Positions 32,316 to 53,400 of a stretch of DNA of 64,000 bases are shown here, in pieces. Position numbers and translations under genes: made by a program. Source of the DNA: Sacculina carcini (taxonomy: Eukaryota > Arthropoda > Thecostraca > Sacculinidae). The stretch lies in the NCBI GenBank assembly GCA_916048095.2, contig OU696583.1, forward strand, positions 4,948,750-5,012,749. The letters run 5' to 3'. Below the pieces are notes generated by a model. That model was not told the DNA's origin, ran no database searches, and was given only the letters and a program-made list of their open reading frames with translations. Position 1 is the first letter of the stretch. Each line of letters starts with the position of its first letter.

Positions 32316-34019
32316 TCACGTGCGGATAAGATGTAGAGGCCCCTGTATGGTGCGGGAGGAGAATAGTATATAGCAAGAAAGGAGAGAATGATCGGAAAAA
32401 GTATTGTCGGGAGGAAATGTGAGTGTATAATAGAGATGGAACTTGCTCAAAGTCGAAGGGTAAATGATAATGTCGAGAACATGGCCAGCTGTGTGAGTAG
32501 GAGTGGAATTTGATATCACCAAGTTATGAGAATTAAGAATTGAAAGAAAATCGGACGCAAAAGGATTAGCCAGAGGATTGTCGAGCCAGAAATTGAAGTC
32601 CCCGACAATCATGAAGTTATCCAAAAAGAGTTGAGAGAATTTAAATATAAGAGAATCAAACTCTTTTTCCCAATTGTAGATCATTCCCAATTTAAATATA
32701 AGAGAATCAAACTCTTCAAGAAACATGGGTCTACCATGTTTACCAGGGTGATTTGGGCGATATACAATTAACATTCCCAATTTTGGCATGTAGGGTAGAG
32801 ATAAAGATAGCGGCAAGAATTCAAAAGCGTGTGAAGTAAATTGAGCGACAGCAGGTATATAAAATGAAAGAGTTGACTTATATACAATACTTAAACCGCC
32901 ACCGTAGGATTTCACTGACCCGGAAGAAGAGCGAGGAGCATGCAGTACGCTGTAAGTAGCAGGGAGATTAGCTGAGCGTAGTGTTGGGGAGAGCTTATTG
33001 TAAATACGGGGTCCTAAGATAGAGAAACAACTATTATAGTGAGTATGTCTAGAAGGAAAAGCAGGTTCCAGTAAGAGACGAGAATCATCAGTTGACCTAA
33101 TTGTACGAGTAGATTTCTTGAAGGATAGAAGTTCAAATAAGTACGAGGGCTTACGGAGAATAAGAGTGGAATGTATGATCAAACAGATGCGGTAGTCAAT
33201 AAGCGCCTCAATAGGAAGAAGTCCCAATTTTTGTAGATAGGGAGAGATATGAGAGCCAGCAGGGAGATTGTAGATTAGACGACAAGCTTTACTAATAACA
33301 GATTGAAGTTTGCGAAGCTGGCGGTGGTTCAGAGAAAGAAAGAGCGAGCAACAGTATTGCACCCTACTGAGAATGAAAGAATTAGCTAGTTTGAAAGCTG
33401 CAGAGAAAGTTAAATATCTACGGATAGAATAGATTCGCCTAATGTGAAAGTTACGTACCATAATGATATCAGAGATGTTTGGTTCAAAAGAAAGAGAATT
33501 ATCTAGCAAGACACCTAAGCTACGAACAGATTTAGAGAGAGGAACAGATAGACAAGTTAAACTTCTAGAAGATTCAAAAAGGATAAATTTGGTCTTCTCC
33601 GGATTGAGCTTGAGATGGTGGGACAAAGACCAGGTTTCAATGTCATCCAAGAGAGAAGAAACAGAAGATTGGGAAATAGTATCAGACGAGAGAATAATTT
33701 GGATGTCATCCGCAAAGATTTGGAAAGTGACATCATGACGATGAAGGATTTCACCTATGGAGGTTAAGTAAATATTAAAAAGGAGAGGGCCTAAGACGGA
33801 CCCCTGTGGGACACCGTATGAGAGTGGGAAAGACTCACTACAAGAATCACTGGTACAAACAAGCTGAGATCGTGAAAGAAGATAAGAGCGGAAGAATGAT
33901 AGTGCAGCGCCACAAATACCTAGGTTGGATAGAGTATTGAGTAGAATTAGATGATCAACAGTGTCAAAATCCAACACACACACACACACACACACACATA
34001 CACACACACACACACACAC
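32316..34019 (-). pseudogene. Chimeric frame: RT of one element fused to endonuclease of next
   Basis: A single uninterrupted frame of 567 codons. Residues 1-17 translate the (CA)n tract. Residues about 18-355 are the C-terminal RT half of a CR1/L2-like element: VDHLILLNTLSNLG, YGVPQGSVLGPLLFNIY, FQIFADDIQII (catalytic box), LNPEKTKFILF and YNKLSPTLRSANLPA. At about 32950 it passes in frame into an endonuclease domain belonging to the element downstream: SYGGGLSIVYKSTLSF, LIVYRPNHPGKHG, MIVGDFNFWLDNP, FSDHSLLSCY. The order RT then endonuclease is the reverse of a normal ORF2, showing that two truncated copies are joined. A 51-bp in-frame repeat duplicates EFDSLIFK within the endonuclease. Whether the joined frame is expressed is unknown. 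Confidence 0.7.
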
Positions 34020-34021
34020 AC
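33974..34021. repeat. (CA)n microsatellite
   Basis: About 22 CA units with one TA interruption. It marks the abrupt edge between the truncated RT on the minus strand and the nuclease-like fragment on the plus strand. Confidence 0.9.
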
Positions 34022-34478
34022 AGTAGTTTGTCTAGTTCATCGTAGTTTGGCGTCGGCAGGAGTCGCGGCAGTGCTGGAACCTCGTGGTCTGAACAGAGGC
34101 GACGGCCGCCGCCCGGACGGGATCACCATATTTCCCTTCCGGCGCGGCAAATCGTTCGTCTGGGACGTGACGTGCACCAACACCTTCAGCAGTGCACACC
34201 TGTTGGAGGGTGCAGTCGCTCCCGGGGCAGCGGCTCGGGCGGCCGAGGAGACGAAGAAACGACGCTACTCGGACTTGAGCCAGCGGTATGACTTCGCACC
34301 GCTGGCCATCGAAACTACCGGCGTGCTGGGGTCCACATTTGACGACCTAATCAAGATCATCGGTCGTCGAATCACAGAGCGTTCGGGAGAGCCACGCGAG
34401 ACGGCCTGGCTCAGAGAGCGGGTCAGCCTGGCGGTCGTGCGCGGCAACGCGGCAACCATCACCGGGTCGCCGAACTGA
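34022..34478 (+). CDS. PD-(D/E)XK-like domain fragment, probably retroelement-derived
   Basis: An open frame with about 150 non-repeat residues ending at TGA (SPN end). Conserved-looking blocks are RRPDGITIFPFRRGKS, VWDVTCTNTFSSAHL, GAAARAAEETKKRRY, YDFAPLAIETTGVLG and LRERVSLAVVRGNAATI. An RPDG segment followed by a strand and WDVT resembles the D…(D/E)XK layout of restriction-like nucleases; similar C-terminal domains follow RT in some invertebrate retroelement proteins, as I recall the family, but this is not checked. It is GC-rich (unlike its neighbours) and lies between CA repeats at 33974-34021 and 34588-34601, with no start codon after the repeat, so the N-terminal part is missing. It is not part of the minus-strand elements on either side. 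Confidence 0.5.
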
Positions 34479-34647
34479 CTCGCATATACAACGCGCGCAT
34501 GTGTGCGTGCTTAATTTTACATTATTATACAATGAATACGTGATTGTAAATACATGTATGTACAGGCAACAAAACAAAAAAACACACACACACACACACC
34601 TGTAGTTCCTGTAGTGTGCAGTTTCAGACGACACTGGTCGTCCGTGG

Positions 34648-36857
34648 TCACGCTGATGCGCCACCACTAACTTTGTCGGCCCGTTGCACCAATAGCTGGT
34701 CGACGATGGAGTTGGACACTGCCCGGCTGTAGTAATGAGGTAGATTAGGCTGGTCTGGTATTGTTCTCAAAAATGCGTCGAGCTGTTTCTTGAATGATTC
34801 GACACTGGAATCCTTCACATTCCTCAATTGTATCGGCAGGACATTATACAGTTTTGCAGCTCGCGAAGAAAATGTGTTAAGCACCAAGTTCTTCATTCTT
34901 GTTGTCGCTCGTGCGTTGACTCGTCTCGATGTGCAAAGTCGACCAAGACGGCGATGAATATAGAATTCAATTTCAGTGCTATTGACAGTTTTTTCTGATA
35001 GAATTTCGTAAGCATATAGTATAAAGTATCTCTCACGACGCCTCTCTAGCGAATACAGTTTGAGAGTTTGAAGCCGCTCCCAATAGTCTAGATGTTTCAC
35101 TGAGCATATTTTGGCGGTGAACGATCTCTGCACACCTAGTAGTTGTTTCAGGGTGACTGACGATGGACTCCACAGAATGCAGCAATATTCTAGCAGCGGT
35201 AGAACTAGGGATTTGAACAAGGTCATCATTGGTCCCGACTCTCGAGTATGGAATGTGCGAAGAATCCAAGCCATTTGAGACCGCGGTTTTTTAGCCACGC
35301 TATGAATATGGGTTGTGAATTGACAGTCCTTACTCAGGGTAATACCCAGATCTTTCACATAGGACTTAACGGTGATATCGGAACCGTCGTGGACCGCGTA
35401 CATAGAGACACCGTCGCTATCACCTTTCACAGTGTAGTTCATATGCTCGAATTTACAGCTATTGAACAGCATGTTATTTTCTTTTGCCCAATTGTAAAGC
35501 ACTTGAAGGTCCTCTTGGAGCAGCTCTCTGTCGGCGTTGGAAAATATTCCCCTTGAAATTCGGGTGTCGTCCGCAAAGGAAGCAACGCGAGAGTGACGGA
35601 CATTTGTGTCGATGTCGGCATTGTACAAAATGAACATGAGGGGTCCGAGCACCGTGCCCTGGGGAACACCGCTGGTTACTGGTGTTGAAATCGACTCGGC
35701 GCCGTCGGCAGCTACAATTTGAGACCTGCCTGTTAAAAAACTATGCAGCCATACACCTAGTTTACCAGTGATGCCACTGTCCAGTAATTTATGGAAAAGT
35801 ATACCGTGGTCCACTTTGTCGAAAGCTTTGGAGAAGTCTAGGTAGATTACGTCCATGTCAATGTTGTTTTCGAGTGAGCTCAACACTTGCTCGTGGTGTG
35901 CCAGTAGTTGTGACAGGCAATACCGACCAGCTCTAAATCCATATTGATTAGTGTTGAAGATGTGCATTTCCTCGAGATATGATGTTATGTGTCCCACCAG
36001 TATTTTTTAAAAAATTTTGATTATGTGTGATGTCAGTGCTACTGGTCTGTAGTTCTTAGCAGCACTTTTCAAACCGCCTTTGAATATTGGCGTAATCCTA
36101 GCATTCTTCAAGCACTGAGGGATCTTTCCTGTTTTAAGTGATGTCTCGTAGAAAACTTGAAGAGCGGTACTCAGCTCCACGGCACATTTTTTCATGAGAA
36201 CTGCTGGAAATTGGTCTGGACCCGCAGCTGCATTAATCCTCAGCTGTTTGATTGCCAGGATTATTTCTCCAGCAGTTATATCGATGTTAGCCAGACATGG
36301 AGTTCCCTCATTTGTTTCCACGAAAAATTCTTCAGGCTTGAGAACAGCTTTTTCCGAGAGAGTCTCGCTAAATGTTTCCTTGTACTGTCTACATAGAACA
36401 TCCACTATCTCCTCAGGCTCGTCTGCAATTTCACCTTCAAGATTAACTAAGGGTCCAATGCCATTTCTGGCTTTCAGCTTATTGGCTGCATATTTGTAAA
36501 AATACTTAGTATTACTTTTTATACGAGATATAGCCTTTTGCTCATTGCGATTGTGTTCATTTTCCACTGAGTTTTTCAATTCAATGTTGATCAGAAATAT
36601 CGACTGCTCCAGTTTTTTCTTGTCTGATCATCAGATTGAGCACATAGTTTTCTTCTCAACTTTCCACGCCTCCTCATCAATAATTTGCGATCGTGCGGTA
36701 TCTGATTTTTCTTAGCAGGTCGTCTCAACGGTATGTATTTCTCACATATTTCTAGGCATTGTGTAATCAAGTAGTTGTACTGTTGATTAGGCTCTAAATT
36801 CTTCATTTCTTCCACCCAATTGAATGTATTAAGACATGATTTCACATCTGTCCACAT
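34648..36857 (-). pseudogene. Non-LTR ORF2 linker and reverse transcriptase
   Basis: Three frames in succession. The linker (36591-36857) has KYIPLRRPAKKNQIPHDRK. The RT N-terminal part (36007-36579) has AAAGPDQFPAVLMKKCA, CLKNARITPIFKGG and NYRPVALTSHIIKIF; a T-rich run at 36003-36010 (TTTTTTAAAAAATTTT) causes the next break. The RT core and C-terminus (34648-35997) are open for 449 residues: NQYGFRAGRYCLSQLLAH, YLDFSKAFDKVDHGILFHK, TSGVPQGTVLGPLMFILY, SFADDTRISRG (catalytic FADD), KDLGITLSKDCQFTTHI, LEYCCILWSP. The catalytic residues are intact. Breaks appear to be single-base, so decay is recent to moderate. Confidence 0.75.
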
Positions 36858-36860
36858 CTG

Positions 36861-37697
36861 TCATCTTTTCGAAAGAAAGTTCATACTACTGAAGGCTTTA
36901 TCTCGGTCTTTCCTTTCTACAATATTCCTCTGATTCATCCAGTCAATTTTAGTGGTCAAGATGATAATGTTGTGGTCCGAGAGATTGGTCTTGTCGATAC
37001 GGTACTCATGTATGATATTGTCGTTATTAACCATGATAAGATCTAAAATATTCACATCTCTAGTAGGTAACCGGATAATTTGCTCCAGACAAAAGTCATT
37101 AGAAAATAGAAGTAAGTTTTCTGCTTGAGATCTCATTTCCAACGTTCCTCCATAGACACTCTGTGAATCCCAGTTGATTCTAGGAAAATTGAGATCTCCA
37201 AGAATTAGAATATTAGGTGTAGGGGATGACAATTCTTCCAGAATTCTTCGCAATTCGGCCAGTTGATCGGTAAATTTATTTGTTGGGCATGCAGGTGGTC
37301 TATAAATATTAATAAAAATAGTGTTAATGGGACGTACAAACAATATATGTTGTTCTGTGTAGGAATTTGACCGGGACAAAAGAACTGTAGTTTTCCTCGC
37401 CAAATTTTCATTGAGATATGTTATAATACCACCTTTCTTTCGATTGCATGTTCTATCGGTCCTAAAAGCAGTGAAATTTGGTATTTGGATTTCAGCGTCC
37501 CTGACGTCTTCGTTAAGGTGTTTTTCTGACAATAATAATGCGAAGGAATTTTCTTGCTTCACAAACTCTTCAATAAGTTTTATTTTGCCCCTACATTTGT
37601 ACGGTAATAGGCCGGCTACATTGAAAGTTACTATCTTGTGTAACTTGCTGGCCGGAGCGGCGGGAAGCACACCTGTGTCTGCAGAGCTGTATTGCAC
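36861..37697 (-). pseudogene. Non-LTR ORF2 endonuclease domain
   Basis: An open frame of 278 residues whose domain begins at HKIVTFNVAGLLPYK. Motifs: FALLLSEKHLN, where the family normally has a catalytic glutamate in an E-T/K context (here SEKHL); GGIITYLNEN; IFINIYRPP; LILGDLNFPRINWDS; and NLSDHNIIIL (catalytic histidine). The N-terminal 20 residues (MQYSSADTGVLPAAPASK) overlap ORF1. It ends prematurely at a stop just before the linker frame, which is out of register. Confidence 0.7.
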
Positions 37698-38005
37698 TGT
37701 GGGCTCGTTCTCTGCAACATCTGCAAGATCTGCGCTTGTGTTGCATGTAGCTGCCGCACCTGCTCTACTAAAAAAGTCAACACCGTATCATGTTGTGGCT
37801 GTGCAGCTGAAGTGTTCACCGGTACTTGGCCAATATTCACTGTCTGTGAATTATCCGAACGATTTGTATTGTGCATAGTGCGTCTTATGTTGGATGCAAC
37901 CACGGTCGAATATGATGGACGGTTTCGGTAATGTTTCCATGGCTGAGTTCTCATTTTTTGCGTGTCAATATTGCACTGTGATGAGCTCATACAATGACCC
38001 TGCAT
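37631..38005 (-). pseudogene. ORF1 remnant of the same non-LTR element
   Basis: From ATG at 38005, 124 residues with no firm domain: Ser/Asn/Gln-rich, a basic patch (YRNRPSYSTVVASNIRR) and a short amphipathic helix (FLVEQVRQLHATQAQILQML) that could be a coiled coil. Its position just ahead of and overlapping the endonuclease frame suggests an ORF1 C-terminus. The frame is open further upstream only because it reads through the (TA)n tract. Confidence 0.45.

Positions 38006-38226: not shown

Positions 38227-38289
<63 letters not shown>
38227..38289. repeat. (TA)n microsatellite at Helitron target
   Basis: About 31 TA units end with the A that immediately precedes CTAG of the Helitron on the right. 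Confidence 0.9.
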
Positions 38290-38290
<1 letters not shown>

Positions 38291-40730
38291 TAGCATTAAA
38301 ACCCGCCCGTTGTGCGGAGCAATTCATAAAAATATTGCAAATTAAAAATATATAAGGCAAACTCATAAAAACCTTAATCAATTAAAAAGTCTAAATTTCA
38401 TTATTTTTAATTTTATTTTGACAAAATATTTTCACTCAGCCCGCCTCATATTTAAACCCGGCCGACGTGCGGAATAATTCAGAACTCGAACACCATCCGT
38501 TCTGGTTCTTGAAGTCAAATCCATTAGTTTTGTATATGAATTCATTCTACACGGTGAAATTGAACGTTTTATTGCTGCCCGCGGGACATTTTTATTTCAT
38601 AAAAATGAGCCATCGCTTCGTTTGCGTTTGAAGCCCCTGATCATTGAACCAGCGGACCATGAACCAGCGCAATTATGTCACCTCATATTCAAGCATACAT
38701 ACACAGACAGACAGATAATTTCTTCTTTATGTATATATATAGCATTATAACCCGCCCGTTGTGCGGAGCAATTCATAACATGAAATTCATATTCAATTCA
38801 TAAAAAATATGGAAAAATAAAAATGAAATAGGGTACACTCATAAAAATATTAATCTATTGAAAATTATAAGTTTAATTATTTTTATTTCGACAAAATATT
38901 TCCCCTCAGTCCGCCTGAGTCATTTTTAAACCCGCCCGTGGTGCTGAATAATTCAGAACTCGAACACGATCCGTTCTGCATCTTGAAGTCAAATCCATTG
39001 GTATTGTGTATGGATTAATTATACAGGGTAAATTGAACGTTCTATTGTCTATAGTTGCTGCCCACGGAGCATTTTTATTAAAAAAATACCTTTTTTCAAA
39101 TGAACCATTTGAAAAAATGAACTAAAAAATGAAACACTTTTTAAACCCGCCCCTCGTGCGGAACAATTCATACAATAAAATTCATATTTGAAGTCAAATC
39201 CATTGGTTTTGTGTATGGATTAATTATACAGGGGAAATTGAACGTTCTATTGTCTATAGTTGCTGACCGCGGAGCATTTTTATTAAAAAAAAAATTACCT
39301 TTTTTTAAATGAACCATTTGAAAAAATGAACTAAAACACACTTTTTTTAAACCCGCCCGTTGTGCGGAACAATTCATACAATAGAATTCATATCAAATCC
39401 ATAAATCAAATCTGCCCGTCTTGTGGTATAATTCAGAACACAAACATGAAACAAACAATGAAAGATGATGAAATCTTTTCATCAGAATGTTTCCAAACTA
39501 TATTTATTACTTAACATCATTCCCCAATATCATTTGCTTAAGTACTATTTTACTTTTACCGCTATAATATTTATTGCTAAAATTTATATATTTTCCGCTA
39601 TCATTAAAACCCAATATAACCTGAGTCAAACCTACCCAACCCAACCCAACCATCCAATCTTGACCGCACTCAGCCTAGTCTGAGGTGATTTAACTTATTA
39701 GTTTGTGATCACAAAATATACTGATGCGATCATAATTTGTAATCAGAAGACTGAGATTATCTACCCCAGGGGTCCCAAACACGCGGCCCACAAATACTTA
39801 TCTCTCAACCCGCCAATATATTATCGGAACCAAACTGTAAGGCAGCTAAATTCACATTTGTTGCATAATGCGATATAATTATGCACCATTATCATATTAT
39901 CTCATAATTCCCGGCTAATGCTTCCACTAATGCATCATATTCATACAGTTGTTAGTTTTTGGATTACACCGATATTAAAGCCCTTGATATTACAGCCGAT
40001 ATTATATTATGCAATCTATATTCTGCTACGTATTATTCCTAATACATATATCATCAGATCGCAAAATATATTTAAAGGTTCACATCATTCTCCAAAATCA
40101 TTTGCTTAAGAGCTATTCTACTTTTATCGCTAGAATATTTACTGCTAGCAAAATATCATATACCTCGCTATCATTTAAACCCACTCTTTATAGATACATT
40201 TAAGCCCGCCCGTCGTGCGGAACAGTTCATTAAATATAATTAATATTCAATTCATAAAAAATGACAAAACACAATTATCATATTATCTCATAATTGCCGG
40301 TTAATGCTTCCACTAATGCATCATATTCATACACTTGTTATTTTTTGGATTATGTAGTCTTGATTTCTTCTGATAGCACCCGTTTGTGGTCACGGTGGTG
40401 CTTCTTCTCGCGATTCTTGTGATAGTCTAGATTTGTTTTTCCAATAGCTCGTGTTAATAACTCTCCCCCACGGAGGTCTGCCGGTCCAGCTTGTTGAACA
40501 AATGTAAACACTGTATTTGTCAACAGCAGCAGCGTAGCGATGCGATATCCAACAACACACGGACGATAGTGGTCAAACAGCCCAAACACAAAGCACGATC
40601 GACCAAGCCACAAGGCTCAACACGAGTAAACGAATAGACAATAGACCAGACCAAAAACTCTCGAGGACCAAGGTCCAAAAGAACTCCGTAAGACCTAACC
40701 CCGAAAGACCTAGAGAATCGCCTACCTGTC

Positions 40731-40740
40731 TCTTTTATGC
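40731..40740 (-). promoter_or_regulatory. Possible TATA box of candidate LTR
   Basis: GCATAAAAGA read on the minus strand, in a GC-richer context (GCGCGTCGCA before it). It is the only good TATA-like site in the terminal region in the orientation of gag-pol-env. Tentative. Confidence 0.3.
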
Positions 40741-41234
40741 GACGCGCGACGGTCAACTGAGGCAGAGCTGGTGCAAGCGCGTACCTATGCTCCTCACCGG
40801 CTGGTTGGTGTTAGTTTCCTCGTAAATCTCTGACTAATCTTCCCCGGGTGGACAAATTTGGATTCCCTGCTATTGTTTTTGTCGGTTAACCTACTCATCG
40901 AGCGGGTAATAAAATTCTCATAAAGTGGTGTGATTTCTCTGGACGCTCTGGTCAACACGTGTTAAGCGGGAGACAAGTCTGGGGTTGACACATTTATGTG
41001 AGATGAATTTATGGCCCCTGCATTCCTTCACGCGCGCTAGCTGCTTGCAGTAGCTCGTCGCTGTCCGCCACGCGCTCATATTACATGCTGACTAAGCATA
41101 GGCGTGCCACGCTTGTTGGGATACACACAGATACGCTTAACAGGCAATTATATAATTAGCTTTTACACACAGAAATAAAGCAGAATAAATGAAGCGAGAA
41201 ACATCTCTGCTACAAGCACAGCGCAAGGTCTACA

Positions 41235-41264
41235 TCAAATTATGTGGATTTCCACATAATTTGA
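41235..41264. promoter_or_regulatory. Perfect 14-bp inverted repeat
   Basis: TCAAATTATGTGGA, a TT spacer, then its exact reverse complement. It lies about 80 bases beyond the stop of the last chromodomain-like frame, in the 3' non-coding region. As RNA it would form a strong hairpin; as DNA it could be a binding site for a dimeric protein. Function unknown. Confidence 0.5.
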
Positions 41265-41344
41265 CCACTAGATGGTCACGGCCATAGAACGAATTATCAA
41301 AGCAAGCTTATACACGGCGAGCTGAATACATGACGAAATACAAT

Positions 41345-41713
41345 TTATAAATTAATAAGATTGTCGTTTGGCACTAACGAATTTGTTTGAGTTCTGTCCA
41401 CCGCCGACTGTTCTCTCGACTGATCCATAGATCGATTGTGAAGAAACGTCACCTGGTCGTTGTTGAGCGCCAGCAGGTCCCAGTGGTAGGCTGTTGTTCT
41501 CTGTTGTAGATGCCCGGGCGCCTCTTGTACGTGTCCGTGTAGAAGCAGTACGCCGATTGGCAATTCACACAGGGTTTCCCATGATGGAGTGATTGGGGTC
41601 TTCCACTTGACAAGTACCTCGGCCACTCCATGCCGGAGGCGATAGCCTTCAATGCTCTCCACTCCCCAGTTGTGATGTGGTACCGAAGTGATGATCACGC
41701 TCGGTATGACCAT
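41345..41713 (-). CDS. Chromodomain-like protein 2, downstream of env
   Basis: ATG to TAA, 122 residues. Residues about 15-52 read as a chromodomain: WGVESIEGYRLRHG, then VAEVLVKWKTP, then SWETLCELPIG. The VEVIxxxR…G…LVKWK…WE pattern matches chromodomains that read methylated histone tails. W16 and W37 correspond to two of the three aromatic cage positions; the third is proline here, so methyl-lysine binding is uncertain. The rest has no known domain. The segment after the domain (ELPIGVLLLHG) resembles that in the neighbouring frame (NLQIGVLIQYE), suggesting the two arose by duplication. It is separated from that frame by 468 non-coding bases. In Ty3/gypsy chromoviruses the domain is fused to integrase; here it is free-standing. 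Splicing to another exon is possible. Confidence 0.6.
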   Translation of the reverse strand: MVIPSVIITSVPHHNWGVESIEGYRLRHGVAEVLVKWKTPITPSWETLCELPIGVLLLHGHVQEAPGHLQQRTTAYHWDLLALNNDQVTFLHNRSMDQSREQSAVDRTQTNSLVPNDNLINL

Positions 41714-42181
41714 TCTTCACTATGCCGTCGAACTCGGTGCGGCGCGAGGGTTCAGTGGAAAACTCGAATTGAATACTTAAAGCTTTGATACACTCGCTTA
41801 TAAAGTTGGCGAAAAAACAATAGCTATTGTTAAATGATACAGCTCATGGTGTCTGTATGCAATCTGACATACAGCTATATCTAAACATTAGCGGAAGCAT
41901 GCGATAAGCTGTCGTCCAAGCGCAAGCGGAAGCTACACAATAAGATATCGGCTTGCAAACCGACGATTCTTCGTACATCTGATAGGACTCAGATAGCGAC
42001 AGCACACTTGGCAGATGCAATTAACACGAATCAACCAAGCAAGCGGGGTTATATATAGCGAAATAAAAGTACAACACGTAATAGCTTGACACAAAATATA
42101 AAACACGCGTGTGGATAATGAATGCGAACGTTCGGACTGAATCACACATGCACGCCCACGGTGGAGATATCTAGTTCAAGT

Positions 42182-42712
42182 TTACACGTCGGGTTCATTG
42201 TTGATGGCGAGGTCGCTGTTCGAGACCAGAGGCGGTACTGGTGGTAGCGCTTCTCGTAGCACGGCGAGTCTTGCAGTTCCAGTGTCGGTGGCAGGTGTGA
42301 AAGGGCGATGTACAGGTGAGATGGCAGTGTACAGTTCCATCCGACCGTCATTGAGCAACACCCTCCCCCAGCTAAAGTTTACATACCCAGGGTCCCTATG
42401 GTGATTACCTTCTTGCCGTTCGTGCCGATAGCTGGAAGGTTTTATTTCCCTTGGCCCCGGCTCTCCTTGGGCTCCCCAGATTCTCTTTATCGGATGCCCC
42501 TGTTCCCAAAAATTTACATCTAGTTCGTATTGAATTAATACCCCAATTTGCAGATTATACAATGGTTCCCACGTTGCCATATCTTGGTTCTCTCCTCTCC
42601 ATTCGACTAATACCTCAAAAATCCCCCCGTTGTTCCTAGAGCTCATTATTCTTTTGATATTGAAAGGGTGTTGGGGAACTTTTGTGCGGAGAGGTGATGG
42701 TATGAATGGCAT
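42182..42712 (-). CDS. Chromodomain-like protein 1, directly after env
   Basis: ATG to TGA-type stop, 176 residues. Residues about 16-65 fit the chromodomain pattern well: PFNIKRIMSSRNNGG, FEVLVEWRGENQ, MATWEPLYNLQIG, VLIQYELD. F17 and W38 correspond to aromatic cage positions; the third cage position is not aromatic. The remaining 110 residues are rich in Pro, Arg and His in the middle (EGNHHRDPGYVNFSWGR) with no known domain. The start codon lies two bases after the env stop (TAAGAATG), an arrangement that would allow termination-reinitiation from an env mRNA. The frame is uninterrupted although integrase and gag are broken. The role might be chromatin targeting of the element or interaction with host heterochromatin; both are inference. 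A host chromodomain gene captured by the element is the main alternative. Confidence 0.7.
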   Translation of the reverse strand: MPFIPSPLRTKVPQHPFNIKRIMSSRNNGGIFEVLVEWRGENQDMATWEPLYNLQIGVLIQYELDVNFWEQGHPIKRIWGAQGEPGPREIKPSSYRHERQEGNHHRDPGYVNFSWGRVLLNDGRMELYTAISPVHRPFTPATDTGTARLAVLREALPPVPPLVSNSDLAINNEPDV

Positions 42713-42714
42713 TC

Positions 42715-44559
42715 TTAAAGTCTCGGTGTACGGCGCGAGTGTAGATGTGGCTGTGTGGTTGCAACCGCGGTGGCAGCTGTCTCAGTCTGGAGGTTGGATA
42801 TCTTGGAAGCGTTGTCTCTCGGTGACGATTTCCGCTTCCTGTAGTAGTATAGAAGCAAGATCGCGACGAGTAAAGTGATGGCACTGACGGATGTGAAAGA
42901 GGAAACATGGAACATGGTTCGCATTGATTGGCGGGATGAAATTTCGTGTATCTGATGAGCTATATTTTTGATTTCGGTACCTTCATCCGGAATCGGTGGC
43001 AGCTGTTCTAATTTTGGGATGAGTTCTTCGTGGCTCATTTGAAAAAGATCTGATAATGAAGGCTGAATTTCGTTCAAGAATTTATTGATGTGGTTTATGA
43101 CTTTCTCGGTAGATGTTTTGCTCACTCGTCGGAAGTATTTGGGAATTTGAACATCAACCGTTGAGGCCGAACATCCCAACTGCAAATGTATGTGTGTTTT
43201 TCGCTGTCCACTTAATGACCGGTGAATTTCGTTATCGGGGCAAGATATCTTCAAGCTAACATTGGGTTGGTGTAAGAGTATCCAGTTTCCTTTCGATATA
43301 TGATATGCGCTACTACTATGTTCTGTGTGGTTGGAAATTTTCTTCGTGCAAGTCGCTGCAATCTTGGCGGGGTTTCCCAGAAAAAGTGCTAACTGGCAGT
43401 CCTTGCTAGTAGCCGTATTATAGAATGCTTGTGAAAATGGGTAAAACAAGTGATTGTTGGCAATTAGTGAGACCAGCGAAAAATCATCCGAAAGTGTGTA
43501 CGTATTCAGATCTGGAGTGATGAGCATCAGTGATCTTTGGACGATGTTGTATCGGACCGTGAAAAGTTGATCACCCACCAAGGCAGGGTTAGGAACGTCA
43601 ATCAATTCGTATACGTTAAACATATTGGTGATATCCAATAGAGGAATGTTGATATGCAGGACGAATCCCATTGAGGTGAATGTTAGTTTCGGGTGTACCA
43701 TTGAATACATTGCGGCGACATTCGATAGTTCAAACGGCAATTTAATTCCGTCCGGCAGATTTTGCTTGATGGAAGTCAATGCTTTTCTGTAAGTTTGTAA
43801 GGGAAGAAGTGATCGCGTAAGTATTCCTGAGTGTATCAAACTAACGTGAAGCTGTGTCTTAGTAATTTGATTTTGAAGTTGTCCGTGTGCGACTGCTATA
43901 TGGTCATACCATCTAGCAATTTGGTTTCTTAGATGACTTAGTCCTAAAGCGAGACTCATGTTGCTTTTCATGCTGGATAGTTCCTCTTCTATCCTGTTCA
44001 TAGCGATAACGACGTTGTTTATATATTTACTATTTTTGGTTAGGGCTATTGCGGTATGGTTGATGATAGTGACAGACTCGTCTGATACATGCAATATTTG
44101 GGACTGGGTGTCTTCCAACATAGCGATTCGCTTAGCTAAATCACTCACTTCTTCATCTGAGGCGGTACCAAACAAAGTGGACATTATATTGCCGACAAAC
44201 GGAAGGACCGAGCGCCGTACACGGTTGGTTTTCTTGATGAGTTTATCATATGCTTGCTTCGTAATTCCTTGTTCCCGCTTAGAAACGTTAAACGCTTCCG
44301 CTAACAGGCTCAGAGTGTGCTCCATATATGGGTTTTCCTCTCCGTATTTGTGTATACAATACCGAAATTGGTCATGTTGTGTCTGGGCCTGGTCCCCTAG
44401 GTAATCTATACTTTTTCCCAACTCGGTGAGGTCGAATGGAACGTGCAGAGTCCAATATGAAAATGATGAGTATACGTGACCGTGGTAAATGGAAATGGGT
44501 GAAGAATCAGACGGGATTACTGAAGAGATGAGTAGGAACAGAAGCAGAGCCATTTGCAT
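42715..44559 (-). CDS. env: Retroviral envelope glycoprotein, baculovirus F type
   Basis: An uninterrupted 614-residue frame from ATG at 44559. Residues 1-19 form a hydrophobic signal peptide. RVRR at 113-116 is a furin-type cleavage site, followed at once by a hydrophobic, glycine-containing segment (about 117-131) typical of the fusion peptide of F-type proteins. Heptad-like helices follow (about 135-215), with several N-glycosylation sites. A single membrane anchor is near 555-573, followed by a basic cytoplasmic tail of about 41 residues. This layout matches the class I fusion proteins of baculoviruses and errantivirus-like elements, which mediate membrane fusion at the cell surface or endosome. 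It sits about 190 bases after integrase, where a spliced mRNA is usual for such elements. It is older or younger than gag-pol only by inference: env has no break whereas integrase has three stops. Confidence 0.8.
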   Translation of the reverse strand: MQMALLLFLLISSVIPSDSSPISIYHGHVYSSFSYWTLHVPFDLTELGKSIDYLGDQAQTQHDQFRYCIHKYGEENPYMEHTLSLLAEAFNVSKREQGITKQAYDKLIKKTNRVRRSVLPFVGNIMSTLFGTASDEEVSDLAKRIAMLEDTQSQILHVSDESVTIINHTAIALTKNSKYINNVVIAMNRIEEELSSMKSNMSLALGLSHLRNQIARWYDHIAVAHGQLQNQITKTQLHVSLIHSGILTRSLLPLQTYRKALTSIKQNLPDGIKLPFELSNVAAMYSMVHPKLTFTSMGFVLHINIPLLDITNMFNVYELIDVPNPALVGDQLFTVRYNIVQRSLMLITPDLNTYTLSDDFSLVSLIANNHLFYPFSQAFYNTATSKDCQLALFLGNPAKIAATCTKKISNHTEHSSSAYHISKGNWILLHQPNVSLKISCPDNEIHRSLSGQRKTHIHLQLGCSASTVDVQIPKYFRRVSKTSTEKVINHINKFLNEIQPSLSDLFQMSHEELIPKLEQLPPIPDEGTEIKNIAHQIHEISSRQSMRTMFHVSSFTSVSAITLLVAILLLYYYRKRKSSPRDNASKISNLQTETAATAVATTQPHLHSRRTPRL

Positions 44560-44745
44560 AACCTACGCATAACAAATAATGGGTTTACCCATATGGACAA
44601 AACCAACATGGAAGCCATATATCCGGAACATGCGTTAATACGAGCGAAAAACACTGCAAGGGACACTCTAGCACCTTGCAGCAAGCAATTAGACTGTTCA
44701 TCGTACACAAATGAGCTCAATGTAATTCGTGGGTCATATAATCTT

Positions 44746-46368
44746 TTACATGCTCATTAACGATTGCCAAATTTCCGCATGCTTCTCTAGGAACATCTTT
44801 GCGATTTCAACTTTTCCTCCTCCCATGGAGATGCTCACATTTTCACTGTGTACACTCTGCTTTGGGCTATACATGCACTTTGGCTCGCTCGTCTTCGTGT
44901 CAACCTGCAAACTCATCTTTGCTCGAGCCTCACTAAGCTCATCTTTGCTCACGAAGTTAGCCTCGTATCGCCCACGTTTATTTTCTACTTGTTCCTCGAT
45001 GTCCTCACTTCTCAGACGCTTGGGTTCTGTCCTTGACACCTTGACACCCGTTTCCTCGTCCTCAATCTTTCTTTTATGTGGCTTTATCTGGGCCTCATCG
45101 GTTTGTGCTAACACTTTTCTCTCTGCGAGGGGCATCTCATCAAAGGTTCTTCGCATCTGGAGCCTTGAGGCGAGAGGGACATCGTCTATGTCATCCTCAT
45201 CACTCGCGTCATCTGATGTTGCATCTAGTTGCTCTGGCGTATCTCTTTGTTCTCGGGTTTCCAGTTGCACTCGACCGGGCCTGACCGGATGTTTCTTCTG
45301 GTAGTACTTGTGATGAATATGCTGCTTGTCTTCTCGAGTGGGCTGCCACACTTCATCTGTGTTTCTCAACCTGAGGTTTTCCACATGCACCGTGTGTGTC
45401 GCACCATTTATTTGATTTCTTATCATGCATGTAACCGGACTCAGGAATGATACTACACGGAAGTTGGGATCCCAAGGTGACGACAGTTTTTCTCTATGTC
45501 CAGCTGGATTACTGTAGTACACGGGATCTCCTGCTTTGAGTACGACTGGTGTCGTTTTCTTGTCATATAGCTCCCGATTCTTTTCGTGCGAGAGAGCCAA
45601 ATGATGTCGCACGTGGTGAAAAGTATGTTGTACATTCTCCATCATCGTTGTAACATAGTCATCTCCGTAGTATTTTTGTGTCGGATTTAATATTGTCTCC
45701 ATCGGTAATATCGGTTCTCGGCCGTAAAGTATGAAGAACGGTGACAGCTGGGTTGTTCCACTCTCGGCTGTCCTGTATGCGGCTAATAACGACGGAATTT
45801 TTGTGTCCCAATTCAAATGTAGTGCACCGGTTGTTTTTGCCAAAAAGTCGTTTTGCACCCTATGGAAGCGTTCTACTTTTGCGTTTTATTGCGGGTGATA
45901 GGTCGACGTCTTTATATGTTTGATATTCCAAAATGTTTCGACTTTCTCTACAATTTCGTTGCAAAATTACAACCCGTTATCGGAAACAATTACTCGCGGA
46001 CAACTGTGCCTTGGCAAAATGTGTCCCATTAACACTTTTGCGACACTTTCAGCCGATTTGTTCGGCACTGGGAAGGATTCGGGATATCCAGAGAAATGGT
46101 CGACGATGTTTATGATAAATCGATTGCCTGAATATGAAACAGGAAAAGGACCGCTGGTGTCTATGGAGATGATTTCGAAAGGATGTTGCGGAATTTGCAT
46201 ATCATGCAATGGTGGCTTCTGCTTTCTCAGCTCTCTCATGTTGCATGGTGTACACGTTTTACAATAATCGATCACATCTCGGTACAAGCCTGGCCAGTAG
46301 AACCTCGTCCGTATTTTTGCGTAGGTTTTATCGATTCCGAAATGTCCCCCGAAAAATCCATTGTGAAA
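44746..46368 (-). pseudogene. pol: Integrase with three in-frame TAA codons and long charged tail
   Basis: Same frame as the RT region, interrupted by TAA at 46371-46369, 45969-45967 and about 45892. There are no frameshifts. Features in order: an H-H-C-C zinc finger ending DYCKTCTPC, first catalytic aspartate in ISIDTSGPFP, second in VIVSDNG, and the catalytic glutamate in NAKVERFHR. The C-terminal domain includes VYYSNPAGHREKLSSPW. The second stop is at the glutamine position of the DNGxQF motif. After about residue 190 of the last frame comes a highly charged tail (DATSDDASDEDDIDDVPLAS, then HKRKIEDEE and EPKRLRSED), which could hold nuclear localisation signals. No chromodomain is fused to it. 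Confidence 0.75.
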
Positions 46369-48929
46369 TTATTCTATTATCGATGGTCTCAGTGTTTTCG
46401 GGACGCACACTTGCAGTCCTGGGAAACGGTTGCAGTGATCTGGGTTTGAAACATGGAAAAGCGTATTATCAATCATAGTATAGTGCCTACCGACATCTGG
46501 CTTGTCATCTTCGGTTTCGAGTGCGGATATTATGCTCGCCAACGAATCATCTTCTTTGTGTAAAGTACAAAGGTTCTTGTTTCTCGACAGGAAGTCACCA
46601 AACTTGTGATGAAAATCGGTGTCATTCTCGGCATCAGGGCAGGGATCGATCTCATATCGCAGCTTAGCTCCTGGTCGTCTATCTGAGTTGATGACATCAA
46701 CGTCACATTCCTGCTCGGATTTGAGTCGCGATAGAGCGTCGGCTACGACGTTCTTAGCACCTGAGATATACTCAACATCACATCCATATTCATCTAACAA
46801 TATCGCCCATCTCTGTACTCGCGGGTTTTTCATTTCAGATGCAAACAGGTACCTTAACGGCTTATGATCGCAGTACACAGTGAACTTCGATCCATACAGG
46901 TAATGTCTGAACTTTTGGCAGGCGAAAACGATAGCAAAACCTTCGCGCTCAATTGTTGGCCATCGTTTCTGCGTCTCGCTCAACTGGTGAGAGAGGAATT
47001 GTATGACACGTTCGCCATCGTCGTGAACCTGTGTCAGCGTTGCTCCGATAGAGTCTTGGCTTGCATCTGTGTATATCTTGTACGGCTTGCTCGTGTCTGG
47101 ATAGGCTAGTATTGGAACTTGCGTTAAGCACTTTCGCAGCTCGTCAAATGCTTCTTGACACTCTTGAGTCCAATGAAATTTCGCGTGTTTTCTGGTCAGT
47201 GCGATCATGGGTTTGGCAATTTTCGCATAGTTGTCAACGAAACGACGGTAATATCCTGTGAGTCCGATGAAAGATCTTATTTCGCGTACGTTCGTTGGAG
47301 GAACCAATTTTTGTATTGCTGAAATTTTCCTTGGGTCTGGCTTTATTCCCTTGGGAGATACGAGATGACCTAAATAATTTATTTCCGGTTTGAGAAATTC
47401 GCATTTGGACATTTTTAGTTTGAGATTGGCTTCGCGTAAACGGTCAAAAACGATGGAAATGTGCCGAATGTGTTCTTCGAAGGTTGGCGAGTATACAATG
47501 AGATCGTCCATGTAAGTAGTACAAAACTTGAACTGAATTCCTTGCAGCACAGTATTCATTAGCTCCGAAAATATAGCAGGTGCACATGCTAATCCAAACG
47601 GCATGTACAGAAAATCGAAACTACCCAAATAACATGTAAACGTCGTTTTTTCTACTGAATCTGGATGCATTGGAATCTGCCAAAAGCCTGATTTTAGGTC
47701 TAGTGATGAAAAATATTGGGCATTCCCAAGTGAACTCAATACGTCGTCAATTCGAGTGATCGGATATGCGTTCTTCCTCGTGTTTTTGTTGAGCTTTCGA
47801 TAATCGACGCACAATCGCTTATTCCCATCCTTTTTGTCTACTATGACTATGGGTGACGCCCACGGTGATCTTGATGTTCTTATTAGTTTGGCGTCGAGCA
47901 AGTCATTAACTTCTTTTTCCACAAAATCTCTCTGACTATATGGCAGCCGATATGGTTGTGATTTGATCGGTGCGTGTTCTCCAGTGTCTATTTTCATCTC
48001 CACAATGTCTGTTTTTCCCAAATCTTTATTCGAGCGAGCAAACAGATCTCTGTTGTGTTCTATAAGCGCTGTTATCTCGTGTCGTTCAGTGCGTTTTAGA
48101 TGTGACATATCTGGCAACTCCCAGGCTTCTTCTTTATTTCGCTGATCTTCGACTGATGCTACGGTGTAGTTTGCCAATGGTTCGGCGTAGCCGATAACAA
48201 GGTTGGCTGGAAGAGTCTGAGATCGGGATGAGTTGTTGGCTAGATACATGCTCAACATTTTTCGCTGATCTGCTCTCGTTATCACTGACATTACCGACAA
48301 GTTTGGTTCGTTCTTGAATATTGGCAAATTGCTGTCAAATCGTACAACGATGTCAGTTTCAATCATGTTCTTTGATGTGACATACGACATGCAGCCTTCT
48401 ACTGATGAACGAGGAGGGATAGTTACTTTATCGATCAGTCGCACCAGTGATCCTGCGCACGTTTTTGTTCGTGATTTTGGTTTCAATGATATTACGTTGT
48501 CGCCGATACACAGAGTTTTGTTACCGAAGTTCAGCGTCACACCATACGCTGAAAAGAAATCTACTCCCAATATGCAATCATATTTCAAACCGACCACGAC
48601 TCTGAATCTATAATTGTCCGAGAATTTCGCCAATCTTATGCATACTTCTGCACTTCCCACATTGTCTAGGGCTTTTCCAGAAGCCCCAATCAGTTTTACA
48701 TCCGGAATATTACAAAACTTGTATTCATCTTTGTCAAGCTTATCGAGAAAAGCTTTTGATATCAGAGACACATCGCATCCTGAATCTATCAAAACGTCGG
48801 CCCTGTGGCGGCCAAAAAAACAGAAACATGTTGGGGTATCGTTACGAACATTTACTGACGCTACTTTCAATGGACCATTATACTGCTCTTTCGCCACACC
48901 CAGGCTGGTCCTACCGGTGGGCGGCGCTA
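46369..48929 (-). CDS. pol: Pol: protease, reverse transcriptase, RNase H
   Basis: An open frame of about 850 codons with no ATG near its start; it is entered by -1 frameshifting from gag at 48930-48936. Counting from GTG at 48897: protease DSG at 38-40 (VLIDSGCDVSLIS), with GVDFFSAYGV later; RT from about 280 with SPWASPIVIVDKKDG, SSLDLKSGFWQIPM, YMPFGLACAPAIF, catalytic YMDD at 462-465 and FIGLTGYYRRFV; RNase H with YTDASQDSIGATL (610-613), EREGFAIVFA (651) and VADALSRLK (aspartate 720). All catalytic residues are present. The order and wording are typical of Ty3/gypsy. The frame ends at a premature TAA before the integrase zinc finger. The product would copy element RNA inside capsids. Confidence 0.85.
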
Positions 48930-49998
48930 GTTTCCCGTCTGACTCGGCTCATTCACTTGTGATTGTGTTCTGCATTGTCTCCCGATATGCCCTATTTTTC
49001 CACATAGATAACATATGGGCTGGCCTTGATCTGTCCACCTGTATCGAAATTTACCCACTGGCTGCCGTTGCAGCTGATTTGAGTCGTACCTCGATTCGTG
49101 CGCAATCCTGTTGATATTTCTACTTTCTGCTGGTGTGTTTGGTCTCAAATCCGGAAATTGTTGCTGTCTCTGTTCGCGCCTATCTCTGCGTGGAAATGCA
49201 TTAGAATGCGTGCGCGGAGGGTATGCTGTTCGTTGGTGGAAACGAGGGAGTATAGCTGGAGTGTTCGCTGATGAATTCGCAATAGTTTGACAAAGTTTCG
49301 AAATGCTTTCTGTCAACGAGCATATATTTTTCTCGATTGCATCTAGCTTGGCTTCCTGGATTATATCTACATCCATCGGTTCTGGCTCGTTTTGACCTCT
49401 GAACAGTGTGTATGTTCTCTCTGTTTTTTTAGCTTCTACAGCATGATCTATTGCCTCCTGCAGTGTTGTTATTTTACGCTTGATCAGCGAGCGTGCGATG
49501 CTGTCAATTGCTATTCCTTTGAGAAATATCTCCACAAGTGCTAACTGTGCGTCTGGAGCGTCAGGGTTCTCGAATGCATCTAGCGAAAGTTACAGTATTC
49601 TTTCTGCAAAGTTTTGTAGGGGTTCACTTTTGTGCTGCTTGAGATACCTGAGCTTTTCGCGTGCCCCCTGTGAGCTACATACTTCACTGTATCTGTTTTT
49701 TGAGGAGCTGCCTCAATCTTGACCATGTCATGCTGTGAGTATTTGTCATTTTCCGGTGGGCAAATTTAACCGCTGGTCCCCCTAGAGTCCTTAGTGCTAC
49801 ATTCAACAGTTGAGCATCATTCAATTGTAGCGAAAGATTGTTGATATCTGAAACCCAGTTCTGAAATTTCACCGGACTTTCCCCTGAAAATGATCGGACG
49901 TGGCTTGCAAAACTGTTTACTTTGAGCTCATTTACTATGTCAGTTAGCGCTTGTGCCATCATAACTGGTTCACTTGATTCGATCATGCTCTCAATCAA
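48927..49998 (-). pseudogene. gag: gag, with one frameshift and one stop
   Basis: Likely start ATG at 49998. The first part (49684-49998) encodes a capsid-like helical segment: VRSFSGESPVKFQNWVSDIN and LRTLGGPAVKFAHRK. It breaks at a run of six A near 49690 and continues in another frame with SEPLQNFAERIL, a TAA, then LDAFENPDAPDAQLALVEIF. The last part (48927-49535) is open: KGIAIDSIARSLIKRKITTL, EPMDVDIIQEAKLDAIEKN, an Arg/Gln/Asn-rich region, a single zinc knuckle CYLCGKIGHIGRQC, and the C-terminus overlapping the slippery site. The fold order is that of Ty3/gypsy Gag, which forms the capsid and binds RNA. The upstream leader to 50190 is non-coding. Confidence 0.75.
48930..48936 (-). promoter_or_regulatory. 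-1 ribosomal frameshift site GGGAAAC
   Basis: On the minus strand the gag frame reads ACG-GGA-AAC-TAG, so the heptamer G-GGA-AAC fits the X-XXY-YYZ rule and is followed directly by the gag stop. Slipping back one base puts the ribosome in the pol frame, which is open into protease without interruption. A GC-rich segment downstream (GCGCCGCCCACC … GGGTGTGGCG) could form the stimulatory hairpin. The same heptamer is used at gag-pro in some mammalian retroviruses. Confidence 0.75.
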
Positions 49999-50190
49999 CT
50001 ATTTGTAACACTTAAAGCGTCAATTACAATACGTATAAATGGCTCTGATAAGGAGAAAAGAATTGTCACATACCCTCGATGCAGAAAGCTTGTGCGCACT
50101 TGTATGGTCCCCGAGTTGGTCGTTCCGGACTGGTTCTTCTGTTCTCCTGTTGTTGTTGGTCTTCTTTGTTCCTTGCTCTTGTTGGCGATG

Positions 50191-50422
50191 ATGTTCGCAT
50201 TTTTCAGGGTTCATTTTGACTTTTCACCGCTATAACTTTTTTTGGTTTAATTTTTAAAATTAAAAATTTAGCCTACATTGTAGACAAGAAAATGTCCAAC
50301 ATGATGGTATAAATTGTTAGCAGGTACGCCAAGTGATGGCCGAGTAGCAGCTGATAGAATATGGACCAAGGAGGGTGGGACACACAGACACACAGACAGA
50401 GGATCTCTTTTATATATATAGA
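50191..50422 (-). mobile_element. Helitron 5' end (outer part of composite)
   Basis: TCTATATATATAAAAGAG at 50422, then a CTG/TG tract, CCTTGGTCCATATTC and the leader ending CCCTGAAAAATGCGAA, after which sequence switches to the retroviral leader. The 5' TC directly follows CTAG of the next Helitron with no base between. Confidence 0.8.
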
Positions 50423-53400
50423 CTAGCATTAAAACCCGCCCGTTGTGCGGAGTAATTCATAACATGAAATTCATATTCAATTCATAAAAAATATGGAAAA
50501 TTAAAAATGAAATAGGGGACACTCATAAAAATATTAATCAATTGAAAATTATAAGTTTAATTATTTTTATTTCGACAAAATATTTCCCCTCAGTCCGCCT
50601 TAGTCATTTTCACACCCGCCCGTCGTGCTGAATAATTCAGAACTCGAACACGATTCGTTCTGGATCTTGAAATCAAATCCATTGGTCTTGTGTATGGATT
50701 AATTCTACAGGGGAAATCGAACGTTCTATTGTCTATAGTTGCTGCCCGCGGAGCATTTATATTTGTTAAAAAAATTACCTTCTTTTAAATGAACCATTTG
50801 AAAATATTAACTAAAAAATGTAAACACTTTTTTTTAAGCCCGCCCGTCGTGCGGAACAATTCATACAACAAAATTCATATTAAATCCATAAAATATAATG
50901 AATACAAATTGAAAAGCAAAAAATGTAACCTATAAATATCTTAACCAATAGAAAAGTCTAAATGTGAATATTTTCGTTAATATTTTGACAAATATTATCC
51001 CTCAACCCGCCTGATATATAAATCTGCCCGTCGTGTGGTATAATTCAGAACACAAACACGAAAAAAACAATGAAAGATGATGACTATATTTATTACTTAA
51101 CATCATTCCCCAACATCATTTGCTTAAGTACTATTTTACTTTTACCGCTATAATATTTATTGCTAAAATTCATATATTTCCCGCTATCATTAAAACCCAA
51201 TATAACCTGAGTCAAACCTACCCAACCCAACCCAACCCAACCATCCAATCTTGACCGCACTCAGCCTAGTCTGAGGTGATTGAACTTATTAGTTTGTGAT
51301 CACAAAATATACTGATGCGAGCATAATTTGTAATCAGAAGACTGAGATTATCTACCCCAGGGGTCCCAAACACGCGTCCCACCAATACTTTTCTCTCAAC
51401 CCGCCAATATAGTATCGGGACCAAACTGTAAGGCAGCTAAATTCACATTTGTTGCATAATGCGATATAATTATACACCATTATCATATTATCTCATAATT
51501 CCCGGTTAATGCTTCCACTAATGCATCATATTCATACAGTTGTTATTTTTTGGATTACACCGATATTACAGCCCTTGATATTACAGCCGATATTATATTA
51601 TGCAATCTATACTCTACTACGTATTGTTCCTAATACATATATCATCAAATCGCAAAAGATATTTAAATGTTCACATCATTCTCCAACATCATTTGCTTAA
51701 GAGCCATTCTACTTTTATCGCTAGAATATTTACTGCTAGCAAAATATCATATACCTCGCTATCATTTAAACCCACTCTTTATATATACATTTAAGCCCGC
51801 CCGTCGTGCGGAACAGTTCATAGAATATAGTGAATATTCAATTCATAAACAATTAGTGCAAATTGAAAAAAACCCATATAAACGTTTTAGCCAATATAAA
51901 AGTCTCAATGTGAAATTTATGTTTCAATTTAGAAAACATGTTTTTCCACAACCTGCCTCATATTTAAAGCTGCCCGTCGTGCGGAATGATTCAGAACTCA
52001 AACACGAAACAAACACAAAGAAAATTGATGAAGAACGACCAATAGAAAAAGTCAAATTTGTAAATTCTTGTTTTAATTATTGTCGAAGTTTTTTCCCTCA
52101 ACACTGCTCAAATTCTCACCCGTCCTTCGTGTGTAGTAATTCAGAAGTGTAACACTATCAAAACAATGAAACTTTCTCTCATCTCTATAATTCCAGATTT
52201 ATGCTTCCGCTAAAACAGCATATGCATATAGTTGGCATTGCATGATATTACAACCCATATCCTTATGCAACTTAAGCGTATGCTACTTGAAATTAAACCA
52301 ATTAAATTACACAGTAAAATTCAGTAGTTTACTTTGTTCCCAGTAGCATTTTACCCGCTCGTCGTGCGGAACAATTCATGTGTAAATATTGAGGACAATA
52401 ATGACTTTCTATTCAGTATAGTGTAGCATTAATTAAACTGTACCCAATAAAACCACACCATCCATGCTTGGAGCTAATATGATGCATTCTTAATTGTGAT
52501 TGGGCTTCAGTGAAATTTAATCGGTGTATATTCCTGTGTAATCGCAAGTGCGCATAATAGCTGTCAAATTGACAATATGTCTTTTTGAATTTACACTGCC
52601 GTAACTTCCTTCAGATACACTTTGGAAAATTACAAATTATACCGTATTGTAGAAAACAAGATTTCTAGCACGATGGTATAATTTATTTTTATGTATAACA
52701 AATAGTTACTGAGAAATAGTAGAAAAATGAATTAATTTTAGACGCCCGTTGTTCAAGTGTAATTTTGGATGTATTTGAGAATTTTGCCAATTTTACACGT
52801 TTTTTGTATCATTTATGGGTATAAATTATAGCTTATCTTGTAGAACACAAAATTCTCTACACAGTAGTATATTCCTGTGTAATCGAAAGTGCGTCAATTG
52901 TGATTGGACTTCAGTGAAATTAAATCAGTGTATATTCATGTGTAATCGCAAGTGCGCATAAGAGCTGTCAAATTGGCAACATGACATTTTGACTTTACAC
53001 CGCCGTAACTTCCTTTAGATACACTTTGGAAAATTAAAAATTGTACCGTATTGTAGAAAACAAAATTTCTAGCACGATGGTATAATTTATTGTAATGTGT
53101 GACAAATATTTCTTGAGAAATAGGTAGAAAAATTAATTAATTTTAATCACCCGGTGTTCAAGTGTAATTTTGGATGTATTTGAGAATTTTGCCAATTTTA
53201 CACGTTTTTTGTATCATTTGTGGGTACAAATTATAAATGTTCTTATAGAACACAAAATTATCTACATAGTAGTATAATTTTTATAGCTGTACCATTGCTG
53301 GTTTATGAGGAATAGATAGCGAAATATTGACCAAAATATTCACGTTATTTTTGCTATTTTTGCCTTTTTGCCTTTTTGTCATTTACACTTCACACCGCCG

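Follow-up and report, generated by a model that had tools for sequence, protein, structure and literature searches.

Known retroelement chromodomains are part of the integrase, and in chromoviruses they are fused to its C-terminus. The window, by which we mean the whole stretch of 64,000 nucleotides analysed here, raises the question of what a retroelement might do with a chromodomain that is detached from the integrase. A preliminary description reported two frames of 176 and 122 residues behind a retroviral env, carrying the motifs VLVEWRG…TWEP and VLVKWK…SWET, and read them as duplicated, separate chromodomain genes of an env-bearing retroelement whose integrase ends in a charged tail. The lengths and motifs of both frames, here called ORF A and ORF B, agree with that account. 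We give a probability of roughly 0.5 to the reading that they belong to an env-bearing Ty3/gypsy-type lineage with a free-standing chromodomain accessory gene (ORF A) and a paralogue of it (ORF B), acting in trans as a chromatin adapter.

Anatomy of the element and its copies

The two frames lie in a retroelement copy with all its parts on the minus strand; the window itself is part of contig C18 of the host assembly (264 Mb in 43 contigs). The features are as follows.

50196..40353, minus strand: env-bearing Ty3/gypsy-type LTR retroelement copy, 9.8 kb, with sharp ends common to other copies
49684..49998, minus strand: N-terminal gag piece, frame interrupted, no Pfam match, called gag from the 357-aa frame of the C23 copy at this place
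48927..49589, minus strand: C-terminal gag piece with a CCHC zinc knuckle (Pfam)
46369..48948, minus strand: pol piece with reverse transcriptase and RNase H; protease match below its cut-off
45967..46368, minus strand: N-terminal integrase piece (Integrase_H2C2, rve)
44746..45885, minus strand: C-terminal pol piece, integrase end and charged tail; Integrase_p58_C only, weak (E = 0.035)
42715..44559, minus strand: env, open frame of 615 aa, fusion glycoprotein of Baculo_F type (Baculo_F E = 3.4e-16)
42182..42712, minus strand: ORF A, chromodomain and second conserved block, 176 aa, ATG two bases after the env stop
42548..42661, minus strand: chromodomain in ORF A (residues 18–55), from Pfam Chromo (E = 1.6e-5) and the family profile
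41717..42181, minus strand: stretch between ORF A and ORF B, 465 bp; longest listed minus-strand frame 80 aa, stop to stop
41345..41713, minus strand: ORF B, short chromodomain-like protein, 122 aa from the ATG at 41713 (123-aa frame 41716..41345)
41600..41665, minus strand: weak Chromo match in ORF B (profile positions 2–24), E = 0.069, 13.5 bits, below the Pfam cut-off
40353..41214, minus strand: 3′ LTR, 862 bp, TGTAGCAG...GACTACA; same LTR in other copies

We placed the ends of the element where other copies cease to match or run on into leader or LTR. By this measure the window copy is 5′-truncated: the 5′ LTR and primer binding site are absent, and the 3′ LTR is present, 130 bp from the end of ORF B. 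In the copies on C9, C22, C23 and C4, the LTR is followed by a 60-nt leader and then by the point matching window position 50196; the leader contains TGGTGCCGTGACCC, which resembles a tRNA primer site and which we take to be that for tRNA-His. A first reading of the window copy as an element without LTRs was discarded on these grounds. The LTRs of the family have the termini TGT...ACA, and the two copies checked for target repeats have 5-bp ones (AACAG on C4, GTGTT on C22). LTR pairs are 100% identical in the C4 copy and 99.4% in the C22 copy, so the family has been active recently; two LTRs of tandem C9 copies are 99.8% identical. For the C7 and C11 copies, looking at the positions guessed from length did not locate the 5′ ends.

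Both gag and pol are broken in the window copy. Both frames are open in the C23 copy, at 357 aa for gag and 1400 aa for pol; the C35 copy has pol as one frame of 1400 aa, and in both copies the pol frame stops ahead of env. The 379-aa C-terminal pol piece of the window gave no Chromo match at E ≤ 10, a search in which HMMER filters drop most matches above about 0.1. The integrase tail has no recognised chromodomain and the two frames are genes of their own, as first described, and the fusion to the integrase C-terminus that defines chromoviruses was not found. The Baculo_F match bears out the identification of env. The family as a whole has LTRs, a CCHC-bearing gag, a pol with reverse transcriptase, RNase H and integrase, and env; the designation as an env-bearing retroelement holds for env, pol and LTR, with the qualification that the copy in hand is truncated at its 5′ end and disrupted in gag and pol. 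We regard the anatomy of the element and its chromodomain genes as firm, with very little room for doubt.

Three copies have joints across env, from 44434 to 42131 in two of them and from 44451 to 42339 in the third. These were considered as spliced retrocopies and rejected, since the joints have short shared words and no GT-AG and look like deletions. Two deletion copies of the window's family (L020 and L021, contig C9) stand in tandem with one LTR in common. On C23 (L022/L045), the end of another ORF B lies upstream of the 5′ LTR of the copy, and a 103-bp host stretch is repeated on both sides of it, which points to insertion with a shared LTR or to a rearrangement.

Chromodomain homology of ORF A and ORF B

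The stop-to-stop frame of ORF A is 199 aa long (42781..42182), and its first ATG, at 42712, gives the 176-aa protein. Against a Pfam Chromo cut-off of 25.1 bits it scores 25.2 bits from the ATG and 24.9 bits (E = 1.9e-5) on the longer frame, and its relatives score up to 33.5 bits. We aligned ten ORF A and ORF B sequences (both from the window, one near-identical copy of ORF A, and others). Nine of the ten match Chromo singly at E ≤ 0.1, and no other Pfam family was found in them at this threshold, leaving unmatched a second conserved block that follows the chromodomain of ORF A and contains WGxQGPPGPR and YRWGRxPLxDGRM. A profile of the alignment, run against 177,635 distinct PDB sequences, returned 64 matches at E ≤ 1, with CBX4 the best (4.8e-7), and also found the solved chromodomains of CBX8, CBX2, HP1, LHP1, Polycomb and Rhino. 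The best 60 of the 64 are CBX, HP1, Polycomb, LHP1, Rhino, CDY-like, MPP8, SUV39H1, SRP43 and other chromodomain proteins, except for a few with uninformative names (one an 'uncharacterized protein'). Profile searches, which the preliminary description had proposed as a check, thus uphold ORF A, which singly just reaches the Pfam cut-off and belongs to a family with stronger matches; ORF B, at 13.5 bits, stays below the cut-off and is recognised as putatively chromodomain-like through homology only.

When the family is aligned to CBX4 and HP1, with the roles of the cage residues taken from PMC3350952, the aromatic cage has F or W at position 1 and W at position 2 in all ten sequences, and the W of TWEP is also kept in all ten. 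Position 3 is aromatic in L028 alone. Methyl-lysine binding is doubtful for most members because this third aromatic is missing in nine of ten. An AlphaFold model of ORF A, made from two sequences, has a mean pLDDT of 37 (block means of 55–66 over residues 21–50); at this low confidence it has strands at residues 19–28, 31–38 and 45–50 and no helix of four or more residues. Foldseek with the same low-confidence model gave 285 matches at E ≤ 10, the best at 0.11 and none at or below 0.001, and the best 50 of these are all chromo or chromoshadow domains.

ORF B is 35% identical to ORF A, and 37% over the first part; the IGVL block is present in both, and traces of the first part of the second conserved block persist in ORF B. 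The sequences suggest that the two are likely direct duplicates, as proposed earlier on the strength of that block, with the reservation that the tree of A and B sequences gives their sister grouping a support of only 0.57. ORF B was found only in the window's family, in 11 copies at 98–100% identity (the window included, one truncated), and the ten other copies make up nine loci, two C9 copies being in tandem. The genome search with ORF B also returned a decayed relative on C10, at 55% identity, and on C23 a fragment of the ORF B end (98.9% over 92 bases); its other matches fall on the chromodomain portion of ORF A relatives. ORF B is kept in copies that have lost most or all of env, namely the two on C9, those on C23, C35 and C3, and one on C22 in which it is truncated; its position beside the LTR may spare it from deletion.

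Linkage to env and selection

A whole-genome search with ORF A gave at least 150 matches, scored from 227 candidates. The linkage test used 60 of 150 matches; the 90 left out are those on C35 plus two on C23 and C3, and leaving them out can only lower the linkage count. The corresponding search with env gave 56 matches, of which 26 fell short of env residue 585 and were set aside. In all 30 that reached this residue or beyond, an ORF A relative lies at most 400 bp downstream on the same strand. Four of these env genes are in the window's family (96–100% identity) and 26 are only 23–34% identical to the window env; some of the 30 look like duplicates (for example two on C1, four on C6) and so are not independent. 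All 23 Baculo_F places in the genome overlap the env match set by coordinates, including two on C6 that are truncated, were set aside and have no listed ORF A neighbour.

The same order recurs in the two other families that were read. In the family of L028 and L030, an env of 650 aa is followed by an ORF A of 192 aa (the env frame of L036 is shorter, at 506 aa), and env again precedes ORF A in the second type (L031, L032, L042). Counted from frame coordinates, the ATG of ORF A stands about 48 bp behind the env stop in L028 and about 61 bp behind it in L042, where the env frame is broken further upstream. The unit common to the lineages is env plus one chromo gene; among the env-bearing families read, env-chromo-chromo occurs only in that of the window. 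The search for relatives with gag-pol-env-chromo-chromo recovered the integrase-env-chromo part of that order elsewhere, and the second chromo gene only at home. ORF A is an element gene, and its linkage to env across lineages (30 of 30) rules it out as a host exon.

Between lineages, ORF A changes at about as slow a pace as env: dN between the window and L028 is 0.64 for ORF A and 0.72 for env, and dN/dS between L028 and L030 is 0.17 and 0.19, respectively. Synonymous sites of ORF A are saturated between the most distant lineages; the L028–L027 pair has a dN/dS of about 0.07, with saturated dS. The L044–L035 pair gives 0.25, and there are higher values of 0.31 (L030–L036), 0.63 (L027–L041) and 0.72 (L035–L029). 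Low ratios in several comparisons, together with the env linkage, support the view that the frames are conserved and are not unrelated host exons. In a set of four young ORF A copies there are 12 variants, 10 of them non-synonymous, as neutrality predicts (p = 1.0), and no constraint is visible. Of the 21 variants among ten full-length copies of ORF B, 11 are synonymous where about 4.9 would be expected (one-sided p = 0.0037), which at the level of sequence shows purifying selection on ORF B. For both sets the majority codon decided how a variant was classed, and relatedness among copies does not enter the test.

Half of the ORF A places examined (30 of 60) are not beside such an env end. An env-less repeat family carrying ORF A (L027, L041, L046, L047 and L048) has dN/dS values of 0.15–0.63 over ten pairs, and selection in this family is unexplained by a simple element-gene picture. 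Its repeat unit occurs in several copies, measures about 3 kb at most and carries ORF A relatives (for example at L027:4725-5306 and L041:1491-2096); the retrieved stretches contain no env or pol of the same kind. Direct repeats of 212 bp flank ORF A in L027, where a 418-aa frame without a Pfam match follows downstream, and L046 contains a pair of ORF A-like stretches that point the same way. At L043:1826-3190, a 455-aa frame starts like ORF A and continues into unrelated sequence with no Pfam match at E ≤ 0.1, possibly another capture. On C35 (about 3.35–4.03 Mb; L033:311-1716, L035:1264-5690), tandem units of about 1.7 kb have an ORF A fragment fused in frame to a piece of orthomyxovirus PB1-like polymerase. 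Two L033 frames match Flu_PB1 (2e-13 and 2.9e-10), L035 was read by eye, and at least about 40 of the ORF A matches listed are such fusions. These units are an endogenous viral element joined to a retroelement gene and amplified.

Possible roles and known relatives

With homology, gene order, conservation, selection and separation from the integrase demonstrated, the role of ORF A can be framed. We propose that its protein would be a trans-acting chromatin adapter that serves to target integration or to counter silencing. The chromodomain would dock on modified histone tails or on a chromatin protein, the second conserved block would bind a protein of the element, and docking and binding together could hold the pre-integration complex or the provirus in TE-rich heterochromatin. 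ORF A would then perform in trans the task that the fused chromodomain performs in cis in chromoviruses. Judged from sequence, we rate this trans-acting mechanism, with its holding in heterochromatin, as plausible at a little under even odds. A site beside env is odd for an integration factor, which would need packaging.

By analogy with complex retroviruses, whose accessory genes act against host restriction, the free chromodomain protein might compete with host readers of HP1, Polycomb or Rhino type on the chromatin of the element, weakening silencing by heterochromatin or piRNA clusters. We consider this quite possible, at odds well short of even. The gene adjoins env as retroviral accessory genes do, its chromodomain comes without integrase and without any other recognised Pfam domain, and HP1 and Rhino are among the profile matches. 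The incomplete cage in nine of ten sequences weakens the case for direct methyl-lysine competition, and the non-synonymous excess in recent ORF A copies, which could be the mark of an arms race, amounts to 12 variants only and is no different from neutral.

It is unlikely that the fold has been reused without a chromatin role, for example to bind RNA, Gag or the Env tail in assembly. Such reuse would fit the loss of the third cage residue in most members, and the short distance from the env stop to the ORF A start (2 bp in the window, about 48 and 61 bp in L028 and L042) would suit co-expression with Env; against it, the aromatics at cage positions 1 and 2 and the W of TWEP are kept in every sequence. 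Chance frames or captured host exons hitchhiking in the element are very improbable, given the env linkage across lineages and the low dN/dS between several of them, even with no constraint on ORF A in the four youngest copies and no relatives found at the cut-offs used when a large protein collection was searched with ORF A, the family alignment and env, a silence that says little because the same search, which for env scored only the 8000 candidates sharing most words, missed env too.

Returning to the adapter, we think it possible, though tentatively, that the element represents an undescribed class of retroviral accessory gene, in which a free chromodomain protein of the element's own (joined in one family by a shorter second protein) would steer integration or disarm heterochromatin or piRNA silencing in trans. 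Among the papers listed by searches of an open-access library, none concerned a separate chromodomain gene behind env, an absence that carries little weight because subscription journals and Repbase lie outside that scope. With a separate, conserved chromodomain gene in an env-bearing lineage, targeting or silencing evasion could be examined independently of the catalytic activity of integrase, and the accessory genes known from invertebrate retroviruses would gain a chromatin module.

The window element resembles errantiviruses and other insect endogenous retroviruses in its gag-pol-env order and Baculo_F env and differs from them in the extra chromodomain gene or genes behind env. The genus Errantivirus proper makes 4-bp target repeats, whereas the window's family has TGT...ACA LTRs and 5-bp repeats at the two copies. 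Gamma- and epsilonretroviruses bear env. According to one review, PMC5408687, they share with the window element a chromodomain-like module in an LTR element, placed inside the integrase both in these retroviruses and in Drosophila elements of 412/blastopia type, and not in a gene of its own; for this reason the combination of chromodomain and env is not in itself new. With chromoviruses the window element shares a chromodomain in an LTR retroelement and, with the chromodomains of plant group II, partly lost cage aromatics; it differs in encoding the domain by a gene of its own after env, with none recognised at the pol end. Chromodomains of plant group II lack the first and usually the third cage residue, according to PMC3350952, whereas the ten sequences aligned here keep the first and, apart from L028, lose the third. 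The host proteins HP1, Polycomb, CBX and Rhino are the closest solved structures by profile and are products of host genes.

Small accessory genes are also found in other gypsy-type elements. PMC11952523 describes sORF1 of the Drosophila MDG1 group, which lies in a subnuclear compartment and has a potential helix-turn-helix, in elements without Env; it places sORF2 upstream of gag, except in some Lepidoptera elements, where it follows pol, and the word chromodomain is absent from that paper. LTR elements of bdelloid rotifers have likewise captured accessory ORFs behind pol, of other types: their added ORF3 encodes an esterase, an exonuclease or a fusion protein (PMC5408684).

The surroundings of the copies bear on targeting. 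Pfam transposon- or virus-like matches lie near five of the nine other ORF B loci (C4, C9, C23 and two on C22), a count without a genomic null in which the matches at C9 (3 kb away) and at one C22 locus are below the Pfam cut-off. The flank frames at C7, C11 and C3 gave no Pfam transposon or virus match, and those at C35 were left out of this search. Around the window copy, related AT-rich repeats form an array (38280-40352 and 50197-52030) with the shared word CCCGCCCGTTGTGCGGAACAATTCATA. This TE-rich setting is only compatible with targeting.

Elsewhere in the window, 32316-37787 on the minus strand holds the remains of a non-LTR retrotransposon, with reverse transcriptases at 32319-34031 and 34651-36006 and an endonuclease at 36864-37787. 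Genome-wide, the telomere-type pattern of TTAGG has 20,354 matches against 0 for TTAGGG, which makes an arthropod host probable and points to a telomere of arthropod type.
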